From NCBI GenBank assembly GCA_943788505.1, contig CALSQR010000001.1:806001-870000 (forward strand): 64,000 nucleotides of DNA. Reading direction: 5' to 3'. How positions within the stretch are numbered: the stretch's first letter is position 1; the number at the start of each line of letters is the position of its first letter. The DNA is from an uncultured bacterium. GTDB lineage: Bacteria; Bacteroidota; Rhodothermia; Rhodothermales; UBA10348. The notes below the pieces were generated by a model. The model was not told where the DNA came from. It saw only the letters and a program-made list of their open reading frames with translations, and did no database searches. Below, piece after piece: positions 48,451 to 52,964 of the stretch. The position numbers were made by a program, and so were the translations under genes.

Positions 48451-48580
48451 GAGTTCAGTTGTCTGCGTCATAACACATGCGCTTGCATTGTGATTTCAGG
48501 TGCTTTTTTTGCTCGAGGCATATCGCTGAAAACACCAGAAGTCAGTAGATTGGTGGATCATTTTTCCTCCAATCTTGCTG

Positions 48581-49471
48581 ATGGTACTCACCCAACTTTC
48601 TGACGTTGATTTCACGCTTTCCGAGCTCCCATTTATGGAGCCGGCGCGCAACGTGGTCATGACCTCTACTGATCACTTCGAAATCACGTATGTGATCAAT
48701 CCGCATATGGCGGGAAACATTGGCGATGTCAATACGCAGATCGCCAAGAAACAGTGGCAAGAACTCCATGACGCTTTTGTGAGTCTTGGCTTCAATGTCG
48801 ATGTTGTCTACGGTATGCCTGGGCAACCAGATATGGTATTCTGTGCCAATCAGACACTCCCCTTCCTTCAAAAAAATGGACAGCGTGGTGCAGTTCTGAG
48901 CAAAATGTATGCGCCTCAACGTGCGGGCGAAGTGCTCCACTACGAACGCTATTTTGAAGAGCAGGGCTGGGATATCATCGACGATATCTTCAAGGGAGAC
49001 ATCGAATTTGAAGGAATGGGCGACGCCCTCTGGCATGTTGGCAAACGGCTCCTATGGGGCGGCCACGGCTTCCGCACCGATATTTCAGTATATGATCTAA
49101 TCAGCCGCAGACTTGAGACGCCGGTTCTCGCTCTGGTTTTGGACGACCCTGAGTTCTACCATTTGGATACTTGCCTCTGTATTCTGGACAGCGAAACAGC
49201 GCTGATCTATCCAGATGCCTTCAAGAAAGAAGGCCTCGAACTCATCCACCATTTTTTCCCGCGTGTCATCGAAGCTCCAAAAAACGAAGCGCGCGAGCTG
49301 TTTGCGTGCAACGCGCATTGCCCAGATGGAAAGAACGTTATCATCCAGCGCGGCTGCGAGGTAACCAATGGTTTGCTTCGTGACCTAGAATTCAACGTCG
49401 TTGAAGTGGATACGGATGAATTCCTGAAGTCAGGTGGGTCTGTGTTCTGTATGAAACTTATGACCTGGTAG
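48581..49471 (+). CDS. Amidinotransferase/DDAH-like guanidino hydrolase
   Basis: The protein (296 aa from ATG 48581) belongs to the pentein superfamily of arginine deiminase, DDAH and amidinotransferases. Active-site landmarks are PDMVFCANQTLPF (about 83-95), LWGGHGFRTD, FYHLDTCLCIL (catalytic His) and the terminal SGGSVFCMKL with C290 as nucleophile. It lacks the extra helical domain of arginine deiminase, so a dimethylarginine or related small guanidine hydrolase is likely. TTG 48575 is also in frame. It is an isolated gene. Confidence 0.87.
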   Translation: MVLTQLSDVDFTLSELPFMEPARNVVMTSTDHFEITYVINPHMAGNIGDVNTQIAKKQWQELHDAFVSLGFNVDVVYGMPGQPDMVFCANQTLPFLQKNGQRGAVLSKMYAPQRAGEVLHYERYFEEQGWDIIDDIFKGDIEFEGMGDALWHVGKRLLWGGHGFRTDISVYDLISRRLETPVLALVLDDPEFYHLDTCLCILDSETALIYPDAFKKEGLELIHHFFPRVIEAPKNEARELFACNAHCPDGKNVIIQRGCEVTNGLLRDLEFNVVEVDTDEFLKSGGSVFCMKLMTW

Positions 49472-49507: not shown

Positions 49508-52075
49508 TCAACGAAAGGTCACTTTTGCCGCCAAGAAGAGGTGCCGAGTTGCCGCTGGGAAAAACTGCGGACCTGTAACAGACACATTGCCCCAAGACAG
49601 CACGCGGTCATTAAGCACATTATTGGCATCCAAAGATAACTGAAGCCGCGTGCGCGACCCTGTCGACCATGCCAGCGAGGCATCTACCAACATAAATGGA
49701 TCGACAAAAAGATCGTCCTGTTTCGCTCCGGCCGCATCTCGTCCGCTACCATTATCGATGAATTGCTCGCCTACCCAAGAAGCCATTACACTGGCGCGCC
49801 AGCCTCCCCGTTTCCAATCAGTGCGCAAATTTCCGTTCCTTCCCGGAAAGCCCGCAATGGTATTCCCTCCGCGATCTAGCATCTCGGAATCTCCCGTCGT
49901 TGATATGAAAAACTCTTCAAACGAGATGAATCGGTTTCTTGAAAATGTAGCATTTCCAGAGAGTGCGATGCCTGCTCCCACTTCAACAGCTGCATCGAGT
50001 TCTATACCACTATGACGAGCGTGGTCAGCGTTTCCCGTGCGTGGAACACCGTATTGGTCTAATTCTCCGCTGGGTACAATTTCGTCCCGGAAGTCCATAA
50101 GAAAGAGATTGGCAGACACACGATGACCGGCTCCCTTCAAGCTTGCCCCAAGCTCGAGGTCGATCAAACGTTCTGGATTGACCAATGGATCTGAGGTATC
50201 GAACGAGCCATCTGAGCGAGTCCGAAACTGTGGTTGGAATCCAGCGCCGGCTTCTTCCCCATCGTATAAGGTTTTCATACGGGGCTCTCGACGTGCCAAC
50301 GCGATGCTGGCAAAAGCGCTAAATGGTTCTTCCGGTTTCCATGTAACCCCAAGCCTAGGGTTAATGAAGGTATAGGGAGTGGAAAAACTTGTACCAAAAA
50401 AGGCTTCGTCATAGGCTCGATACTGCCTCCAAGTGACTTGAACATCTGCCTGTGCAGCCCAGTCGCTTGAAAAACGCTGCAACCTAGAAGCATACAGCGA
50501 GGCAATTTTCTTCTCTCCTCGGAACGAGTAAACTCGGGCATCGGCCGCCGAACCTACAATGTCATCCGGAAGGCCGAAACCTTCCTGAATCCTGCCCCAG
50601 CGAAGACTTCGGTGTAATCTAAGTTCCGCACCGATCGTTGTTGTAGCACGAGGAGATGTAGCTATCAGTCTAGGCATCCAACCAACCTGCCATTGATCCA
50701 GATAGGCTCTGAACTGGACACCTACATCAGGACGGGACAAGAAGAGAGGTAGCTCTCTAGACGCACCCGAGACGATGGTTTCTGGCAGCCTCAAGTAGTC
50801 GGCACTTCGGAACGTACCTCCAAAATCGAAAAAGCCTTCCCCTTTCATCCAGAATATCGCCTGACTGAACGTCAACTTGTCGTTCATATTCCACTCGTGA
50901 TGCAGTTCAACATGCGGCTGATGGAAATTTTCAACGTCCCGATCAAAGGCGGAATAGTTGTATTTCCGATTGATTGTTCCCCCATATCCGTCGTCTAGAG
51001 TGCGCGTATTAGCTGCTTTCGGAATACCGGAATATGCTAGTCCGTCGCGCTGAGGACCTCCATAGGCTTGTAGCGTGAGGCTGGAGCGCTCTCCATACCG
51101 AGTAACACCAGCGAAAAAACGCCAAAACTCAGTCCACGACCAATCCCTGTAGCCATCTGAGGTGAGCCGACTTAACCGACCATAGACTACATACCGGTCG
51201 GCCAAGAGGCCCGAATTGACTTCTCCCGAGATCCGCCTCGTCCCGAACGCGCCACTTCCAACGTGAACCGATGCCTCAAAATCACTTTTATAGGGCATGG
51301 CACGAAGATTTATTGCTCCCCCGATTGCCGTTGGACCATAGACTGAAGAGCCCGCTCCGCGTTGTATCTGAATATCCTGGACCGCCCCTTGGATGTCGAA
51401 AAAATTAATCCAGTAAACATTGAATTCCTCCGGGTCATTCTGTGGAATTCCATTAATTGCGACAGCTAAGTGGCGTTGGTCAAATCCACGCATCCTTAGG
51501 GTCGAGTACCCGATGGCATTGCCATTTTCGGAGTAGTACGTGATCCCCGGCTGGCGCGCTAAATGCACCGGCAAGTCTTTCATATCCGGCTGTTCAGCAA
51601 GCTCAAGAGCGGTGATATTGGATACGGTGACGGGTGAAAGTCGCAATCTGGCGCGACGCGAACTGACCACCACCTCACCATGAGACAAGACACCAGGGAC
51701 CAGTACCAGATCTACCACAACTGGCTCCGATTGAACCTGAATAATCAAGGATGTGGAGCCAAACGCTACGTGCGAAACGAAAAGATCATAGCGGCCCTTT
51801 GCTACGTTCTCCAGATTGAAATACCCCTCATCGTCCGTGACGACAGCATACCGTGCAAGTGACGACCCGGCAGGAAACAGCTGTACGGCAGCAAAAGGAA
51901 TTGGCTCTCCTGCCTCATCAGAAATTTTTCCTGAGACAGACAAAGACAATATGTCATCGTTTGCACGATCAATCGGATCCGCGAATGAGCTGGCCCGCAT
52001 CGAGCCCGGAATGAGTACTATTGCGGATAACAAAAGCACTACGAAGGCGATGCAGCGATGAGACGAGTGGTACAT
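49508..52075 (-). CDS. TonB-dependent outer-membrane receptor, TPP-riboswitch controlled
   Basis: The 855-aa protein has a signal peptide (about 1-30), a carboxypeptidase-regulatory-like domain (VSGKISDEAGEPIPFAAVQLF, about 46-66), a plug domain (DLPVHLARQPGITYYSENGNAIGYSTLRMRG, IQRGAGSSVYGPTAIGGAINL) and a C-terminal barrel ending LFLAAKVTFR. Such receptors take up substrates with TonB energy. The gene is preceded by a TPP riboswitch, so the most likely ligand is thiamin or a precursor. There is no SusD-like partner, and the DUF3592 gene upstream is unrelated. Confidence 0.92.
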   Translation of the reverse strand: MYHSSHRCIAFVVLLLSAIVLIPGSMRASSFADPIDRANDDILSLSVSGKISDEAGEPIPFAAVQLFPAGSSLARYAVVTDDEGYFNLENVAKGRYDLFVSHVAFGSTSLIIQVQSEPVVVDLVLVPGVLSHGEVVVSSRRARLRLSPVTVSNITALELAEQPDMKDLPVHLARQPGITYYSENGNAIGYSTLRMRGFDQRHLAVAINGIPQNDPEEFNVYWINFFDIQGAVQDIQIQRGAGSSVYGPTAIGGAINLRAMPYKSDFEASVHVGSGAFGTRRISGEVNSGLLADRYVVYGRLSRLTSDGYRDWSWTEFWRFFAGVTRYGERSSLTLQAYGGPQRDGLAYSGIPKAANTRTLDDGYGGTINRKYNYSAFDRDVENFHQPHVELHHEWNMNDKLTFSQAIFWMKGEGFFDFGGTFRSADYLRLPETIVSGASRELPLFLSRPDVGVQFRAYLDQWQVGWMPRLIATSPRATTTIGAELRLHRSLRWGRIQEGFGLPDDIVGSAADARVYSFRGEKKIASLYASRLQRFSSDWAAQADVQVTWRQYRAYDEAFFGTSFSTPYTFINPRLGVTWKPEEPFSAFASIALARREPRMKTLYDGEEAGAGFQPQFRTRSDGSFDTSDPLVNPERLIDLELGASLKGAGHRVSANLFLMDFRDEIVPSGELDQYGVPRTGNADHARHSGIELDAAVEVGAGIALSGNATFSRNRFISFEEFFISTTGDSEMLDRGGNTIAGFPGRNGNLRTDWKRGGWRASVMASWVGEQFIDNGSGRDAAGAKQDDLFVDPFMLVDASLAWSTGSRTRLQLSLDANNVLNDRVLSWGNVSVTGPQFFPAATRHLFLAAKVTFR

Positions 52076-52212
52076 AAAAAGGGGCGATGAATGCTTATTT
52101 CCGGGTATCGGATGGTCCGAACAGCGTGCAAAAAGCGCTATTTAAATCACAAAGTGCTTATCGATGATTCATCGTCAGGGCGAGCACCCATCATCGGGGT
52201 CGGTACCGAGTC

Positions 52213-52236
52213 AAAAAAACCCATTAACCGGGCTGA
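52213..52236 (-). terminator. Possible riboswitch expression-platform terminator
   Basis: On the minus strand a weak stem of five pairs (AGCCC-GGTTAAT-GGGTT) is followed by TTTTT. It lies about 20 bases behind the TPP aptamer and about 140 bases before the receptor start, so control could be by premature termination. The stem is short, so translation control is not excluded. Confidence 0.45.
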
Positions 52237-52257
52237 AACAGTACCTGAGGAATGTCC

Positions 52258-52331
52258 TCGTTTCCCTTCGCCGGCATTATCCGGACAGGTTCCAGGGGTA
52301 TAATCTCAGCCTAAACGGGCACCCCCAACGA
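52258..52331 (-). promoter_or_regulatory. TPP (THI-box) riboswitch
   Basis: The minus strand contains the conserved core GGGGGTGCCC, GCTGAGATTATACCCC, GGAACCTGTCCGGATAATGC and GGCGAAGGGAA in order. The stem P1 is TCGTT/AACGA at the two ends. The CUGAGA and GAAGGGA elements that bind the pyrimidine and the pyrophosphate of thiamin diphosphate are intact. It precedes the TonB receptor by about 180 bases and implies repression by thiamin diphosphate. Confidence 0.93.
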
Positions 52332-52335
52332 ATCG

Positions 52336-52791
52336 TCACTCCGAATATACGGCGCGTCGTGTTTGAAACCGGTTCCAGCTGAAGACACCTACAAAAGCCA
52401 TTAGAAAAGCGATAAAACTCATGGCCGCATTGCTCCACGCAATTCTGACTTGTGTTCGCCCAATAGCGGTAATCACCACTTCCTGACTCGATCCTTCCAA
52501 AATGGTGACCTCAAGCGTGTCTGATTCCACCCGGTGGCCAATTGAATACGGAAGTGCTAGCCGGTTATGCTCAAATGTTGACCCATCTGCCCGATGAATG
52601 AGCAGGTCTAATTCCACGTTTGTTACATCCTTGCGATCGGAGCGTTCGTACCGAGTAACCTCAGCCCACGTAACTTCACCGTCGTCCAACGTGGTCTTGA
52701 GGTTGACGGCCGTCCAAACCTGGTGAACAGAAAGAAGAAAAATGATTGTCGGGATCACCCAGGCAAAACGGGCAACAGTTCGAGACGTCAT
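52336..52791 (-). CDS. DUF3592 membrane protein
   Basis: The protein (151 aa from ATG 52791) has two transmembrane segments (about 7-26 and 118-137) flanking a beta-rich domain (VTWAEVTRYERSDRKDVTNVELDLLIHRADGSTF), the DUF3592 layout. Function unknown. TTG 52803 is in frame but has no support. The TPP riboswitch starts only five bases behind its stop codon, so the riboswitch promoter probably lies inside this gene. Confidence 0.75.
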   Translation of the reverse strand: MTSRTVARFAWVIPTIIFLLSVHQVWTAVNLKTTLDDGEVTWAEVTRYERSDRKDVTNVELDLLIHRADGSTFEHNRLALPYSIGHRVESDTLEVTILEGSSQEVVITAIGRTQVRIAWSNAAMSFIAFLMAFVGVFSWNRFQTRRAVYSE

Positions 52792-52964
52792 GGAATCGCT
52801 CAATTATGGGAGCTCGCAAAAAGATACTTCGGTGCAACCATTGCCTTCATAGCGGGGTCCGTACAGGCCGTGAAGAAAATGCCAATCTGATCGAACAGAC
52901 CACGGCAGGTAGTCCTGGTATCATTCTCAGTGAGTGGTCTACTCACATACCGGAACCGGAGCGC

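Follow-up and report, generated by a model that had tools for sequence, protein, structure and literature searches.

A TPP riboswitch upstream of an Omr1/OMthi-like TonB-dependent receptor in a Rhodothermales genome predicted to be a pyrimidine auxotroph

The DNA analysed here (the window) is a stretch of 64,000 nt from an uncultured Rhodothermales bacterium (UBA10348; GCA_943788505.1, contig CALSQR010000001.1, positions 806,001-870,000), whose genome, referred to as the source genome, has a size of 2.75 Mb and is 96.9% complete. The minus strand of the window carries an 855-aa open reading frame (49508-52075) that starts at 52075 with an ATG, has a signal-peptide-like N-terminus and encodes a TonB-dependent outer-membrane receptor. 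Pfam models recognised a carboxypeptidase-regulatory-like N-terminal domain (PF13620, residues 46-125, 51701-51940; 49 bits), a plug domain (PF07715, residues 145-254, 51314-51643; 53 bits) and a beta-barrel (PF00593, residues 335-820, 49616-51073; 119 bits), the last two scoring over the curated cut-offs. As proposed in the initial annotation of this DNA, the receptor is the first same-strand gene behind a full-length TPP riboswitch aptamer (THI box; 52246-52336, minus strand), with 170 nt of leader or expression platform (52076-52245, minus strand) between the aptamer and the start codon. Further upstream, the stop codon of a 155-aa membrane-protein-like ORF (52336-52803, minus strand) touches the start of the aptamer; profile searches gave no family match for this ORF. 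The gene past the receptor, on the opposite strand, is dimethylargininase/arginine dihydrolase-like (48575-49471, plus strand); it is convergent to the receptor, is kept beside it in several relatives, and does not reach the curated NCBIfam cut-offs. Neither PnuT, ThiXYZ nor any other recognisable thiamin transporter adjoins the receptor, in agreement with the annotation, and no ligand-specific relative of the receptor was present in NCBIfam or PDB.

The identity of the aptamer was established by a cmscan search of the window, in which the RF00059 match (minus strand, 52336-52246) extended end to end over model positions 1-105 with 72.6 bits and, for the window, an E of 2.3e-12; the gathering score is 54.3. 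The core segments CUGAGA, ACCUG and GAAGGGA are all intact, and our own covariance model, R1, scored the aptamer at 83 bits. These results bear out the initial annotation, which had described a complete THI-box core with intact CTGAGA and GAAGGGA and had suggested Infernal with the Rfam TPP model as a check. Its range of 52075-52331 covers most of the aptamer, but its end coordinate falls 5 nt short of 52336 and the part from 52075 to 52245 corresponds to the leader. The aptamer is the sole one of its kind in the source genome: a whole-genome search found no second TPP aptamer, and the other thi loci carry none. With regard to its sequence, the conserved CCUGAU junction is short by one nucleotide (CCUG-U) in the aptamers of the genus of the window and of its sister genus (alignment A2: window 52246-52336 and loci L007, L015, L018, L022 and L026), and all CCUG-U aptamers also carry C for U at column 62, opposite G12. 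As judged from this alignment, the two changes together make up a variant of the TPP aptamer core that is peculiar to this clade.

Analysis of the leader with RNAduplex revealed a candidate anti-aptamer element (52165-52190, minus strand) that may pair with the aptamer 5′ strand (GATTCGTTGGGGGTGCCC). The predicted pairing in the window amounts to -22.3 kcal/mol, with a shuffle p of 0.055 for this leader alone. In several of 20 leaders the aptamer 5′ strand pairs better with the leader element than with shuffled elements, and over the 20 leaders own elements pair better than swapped ones (P 0.001 or less); within the genus, where these parts hardly vary, own elements had no such advantage. Taken over its full length, the leader shows no unusual stability (z -0.90). 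The pairing models support an alternative helix whose formation would undo the aptamer fold. Two other devices were considered. A pattern scan found a weak terminator-like hairpin with a U run behind it at 52218-52234 (minus strand), the scan giving 2 such patterns over both strands vs 0.8 expected by chance; transcription termination as the control device is not favoured, given that the hairpin is weak and has no counterpart in most relatives. The anti-aptamer element might also sequester the start codon, but this pairing was no better than in dinucleotide shuffles; the swapped-partner test was positive, a result that base composition can produce, and start-codon sequestration is not claimed here.

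The association between aptamer and receptor was studied in 60 genomes, namely the source genome and 59 relatives, with a cut-off of E 1e-80 or better for receptor orthologues. TPP aptamers were present in 52 of the 60 and receptor orthologues in 37; in 35 of these 37 the coordinates place the aptamer on the receptor's strand, directly upstream of it. As for the two exceptions, aptamer and receptor lie at the ends of different contigs in one genome (G022), and in the other (G047) the receptor is present only as a fragment. When GTDB genome contigs were scanned with 17 aligned receptors, 477 relatives were obtained; the best 80 loci, in partial overlap with the 60 genomes, were searched for the aptamer with our own covariance model. 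It was located just upstream of the receptor in 72 of these 80 loci, from several phyla: in 67 of the 71 that had 350 nt or more of sequence on that side, and in 5 with less. The wider receptor family extends over Rhodothermales, Ignavibacteria, Calditrichota, KSB1, Gemmatimonadetes and Chlorobiota. One full-length orthologue (L136, 56% identity) has 1.4 kb of upstream sequence that contains no aptamer.

The genes upstream vary between genera, and the aptamer-receptor pair is constant. The 155-aa ORF itself is found upstream in some relatives only, with aptamer and receptor remaining paired, and it is outside the aptamer-receptor system. The short junction, in which the aptamer of the window departs from those of other relatives, could be read as a sign that the aptamer is decayed or misplaced and exerts no control over the receptor, which would then belong to the upstream gene cluster, but the missing nucleotide is common to a whole clade of receptor-linked aptamers. 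That the aptamer begins where the upstream ORF stops, and that a simple scan recognised no promoter, would also suit such a reading; set against the constancy of the pair amid changing upstream genes and a full-length match well above threshold, we consider it very improbable.

Inspection of receptor loci outside Rhodothermales revealed that a thiamin pyrophosphokinase gene often follows the receptor on the same strand (26 loci, with examples verified by PF04263 and PF04265), and that a sodium:solute symporter is part of the receptor operon at 20 loci, the one of Salinibacter included. The usual arrangement outside the order is aptamer-receptor-thiamin pyrophosphokinase-sodium symporter. The receptors of the pyrophosphokinase operons (loci L165-L204) show 36-41% identity to the window receptor over most of its length. 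The carboxypeptidase-regulatory-like domain, which the initial annotation had regarded as distinctive, is instead family-wide, being present in 17/17 Rhodothermales receptors and in 8/8 receptors from pyrophosphokinase operons. The same operon type has been published for Caldithrix abyssi (Cabys_3975-3977), where the authors found a high similarity of the receptor to BT2390, the Bacteroides thiamine receptor (PMC5317091), and for this reason the window receptor is placed in the Omr1/OMthi thiamin receptor family; the link to BT2390 rests on the statement in that work. In C. abyssi the aptamer is situated 163 nt before the TonB-dependent receptor, close to the 170 nt of the window, and operons of this type also occur in the Calditrichota, Ignavibacteria and KSB1 members of the family. 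Unlike the C. abyssi receptor, the one in the window stands alone, and the source genome has neither a thiamin pyrophosphokinase nor an orthologue of the Salinibacter symporter.

A second known counterpart is the OMthi BT2390-PnuT-Tnr3 system of B. thetaiotaomicron, which was reportedly predicted by Rodionov in 2002. There too a TPP aptamer precedes a TonB-dependent receptor (PMC5613172). Deletion work showed the role of OMthi in thiamin supply, BT2390 supporting growth at low thiamine once synthesis had been deleted (PMC5613172). Unlike the source genome, B. thetaiotaomicron retains a thiamin synthesis operon, PnuT and a pyrophosphokinase. The OMthi transcript was unchanged with thiamine in that organism (PMC5613172), an observation that counts against the explanation favoured below. 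The combination expected of a genome with an Omr1-TPK-symporter or OMthi-PnuT-Tnr3 operon, an inner-membrane transporter and a pyrophosphokinase that mostly lie in the operon itself, was not found in the source genome. The receptor itself is of a known family, and it is its metabolic setting that differs.

To describe this setting, the source genome was inventoried for ThiC, ThiD, ThiE, ThiG, ThiL, ThiO, ThiS, TenA, TenI and thiamin pyrophosphokinase. ThiC was not found in the source genome nor in any of the 27 members of its family (f1), and the thiamin pyrophosphokinase model PF04263 had no match in the source genome and its 59 relatives, vs matches in 7 of 14 control genomes. On the other hand, ThiE, a TenI-like protein, ThiD, ThiL, ThiG, ThiO and TenA are present. 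Several of these genes form a cluster in the order thiO-thiS-thiG-tenI-thiD, with a ThiS-like ORF between thiG and thiO, and the tenA gene lies about 8 kb beyond the window, its product keeping the Cys and Glu that align with those of B. subtilis TenA. The absence of ThiC together with the presence of ThiD, ThiE, ThiG, ThiL and TenA corresponds to the HMP auxotrophy type. From this gene content, the pyrimidine half is evidently the sole part of thiamin that is missing, next to a near-complete thiazole branch, and the organism is predicted to be a pyrimidine auxotroph with a single-gene TPP regulon.

No inner-membrane partner of the receptor was identified in the source genome. The sole PnuC-family gene found there is located 333 kb from the receptor and passes the model for the nicotinamide riboside transporter PnuC; it lies at L065 6968-7639 (C1:1191973), beside YbaK-like and PHP-domain genes. 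PnuT as the partner was rejected, since PnuC-family genes of two relatives (G036 and G043) adjoin NadR-like genes and several receptor-positive genomes lack the family. The symporter of the Salinibacter operon was likewise rejected, its orthologue being absent from the source genome.

Comparison of the 60 genomes distinguished three types. Type I comprises 15 genomes with thiC and without the receptor, in 12 of which the aptamer lies upstream of thiC on the same strand. Type II combines the receptor with ThiD, ThiE and ThiL, and type III (11 genomes) has the receptor and ThiL without ThiE, ThiD or TenA. TenA was found in 23 of the 25 receptor-positive genomes that keep ThiD and ThiE, in 3 of the 15 with thiC, and in none of the 11 ThiL-only ones. 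The type III members (G014, G015, G022, G027, G029, G035, G040, G043, G050, G053 and G059) also lack ThiC and thiamin pyrophosphokinase; TMP in them may be made from imported thiamin by some other enzyme or be imported as such. thiC and the receptor never occur together, either in a genome (15 vs 37) or in a family (7 with thiC, 7 with the receptor). A tree of PGK and ThiL places only about 3 switches between the two states, with 2-3 independent pairs; with so few switches the exclusion, though consistent, loses its significance when phylogeny is taken into account. The thiC-linked TPP riboswitch of related Rhodothermales resembles that of the window in aptamer family, in occurring in the same bacterial order and in being mostly the only aptamer of its genome; it acts on pyrimidine synthesis, whereas the one in the window would act on uptake.

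Other aptamers of these genomes showed less regular settings. In family f14 (G039, G049 and G058) thiC is present and a TPP aptamer was not found in the genome. A weaker match (L076 6674-6776, plus strand) lies directly before a short-chain-dehydrogenase-like gene in G038; such weak matches, with similar ones in G048 and G057, reach 50-52 bits against RF00059 and so stay below its curated cut-off. G057 is Salinibacter altiplanensis (L115 and L081), which has one intact operon in the order aptamer, receptor, symporter, TenA; a second aptamer there goes with a receptor copy whose reading frame is disrupted, and a further one immediately precedes tenA.

The conserved linkage, the pyrophosphokinase operons of related receptors and the absence of ThiC support the proposal of the initial annotation that a TPP riboswitch controls a receptor for thiamin or a thiamin precursor. 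The explanation that we consider probable is that an Omr1/OMthi receptor under TPP-riboswitch control imports thiamin or a thiamin-derived pyrimidine and feeds TenA, ThiD, ThiE and ThiL. At low intracellular TPP, the aptamer 5′ strand would be free to pair with the downstream element and the receptor would be made; with plentiful TPP the aptamer would fold and the receptor would be shut off, at the level of either translation or transcription. Thiamin, or a pyrimidine derived from it, would cross the outer membrane through the receptor and then take a presumed route through the inner membrane. TenA would release or repair HMP, ThiD would phosphorylate it, ThiE would join the product to home-made thiazole, and ThiL would make TPP. 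Since ThiC and thiamin pyrophosphokinase are missing from the source genome, which keeps the thiazole branch, TenA, ThiD, ThiE and ThiL, it is most likely the pyrimidine half that import provides.

The nature of the ligand is where the readings diverge. In the receptor tree, type II and type III receptors interleave, with at least 2 changes on well-supported branches, and consequently no clade marks a change of ligand; a separate clade of pyrimidine receptors was rejected on these grounds. This interleaving of receptors from genomes with and without TenA, ThiD and ThiE would suit a receptor that takes only intact thiamin or its phosphates, which an unrecognised kinase or ThiL would convert to TPP, TenA having no part in its use. 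The type III gene content and the pyrophosphokinase of the sister operons point in the same direction. However, thiamin pyrophosphokinase is found in 0 of the 60 genomes against half of the control genomes, and the near-complete thiazole branch, ThiD, ThiE and TenA of the source genome would be superfluous, so that we hold this reading to be possible but on balance not the likelier course. In the probable explanation given above, the ligand most simply shared by all these receptors is thiamin, or a part that every B1 vitamer contains, and the pyrimidine route cannot be the role of the receptor everywhere, since TenA, ThiD and ThiE are missing from type III relatives whose receptors fall in the same clade.

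To our knowledge, no outer-membrane receptor has a demonstrated specificity for a thiamin precursor. The type II receptors of Rhodothermales might have shifted to free pyrimidines (HMP, aminomethyl- or formylaminopyrimidine), in parallel to ThiV-TenA of SAR11, where ThiV, a sodium symporter for HMP, adjoins a TPP riboswitch and tenA (PMC10881298, PMC11452348). SAR11 resembles the source genome in lacking ThiC, in keeping TenA and in a TPP riboswitch on B1-precursor uptake (predicted in the window), although the transporter is an inner-membrane symporter there and an outer-membrane receptor here. Such a shift would fit a genome that misses the pyrimidine half only, as well as the S. altiplanensis operon that joins receptor, symporter and TenA. 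It is harder to reconcile with the full-length relationship to the pyrophosphokinase-operon receptors, with type III receptors nested among those of type II, and with the lack of an orthologue of the Salinibacter symporter in the source genome, and we regard it as rather doubtful. Equally tentative is the broader idea of a single TPP riboswitch that, across Rhodothermales, governs either thiC, for pyrimidine synthesis, or a receptor importing HMP, amino- or formylaminopyrimidine together with TenA.

Outer-membrane receptors under this type of TPP control occur widely in aquatic bacteria, where they are well transcribed, and a 2025 survey lists the specificity of omr1 as unclear (PMC12442306). 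For Rhodothermales that have TenA and lack both thiC and the kinase, the prediction is that the receptor serves growth on thiamin or HMP-type pyrimidines, and in their ThiL-only relatives growth on thiamin or its phosphates. Tests of these two predictions would show whether one receptor family spans several B1 vitamers.
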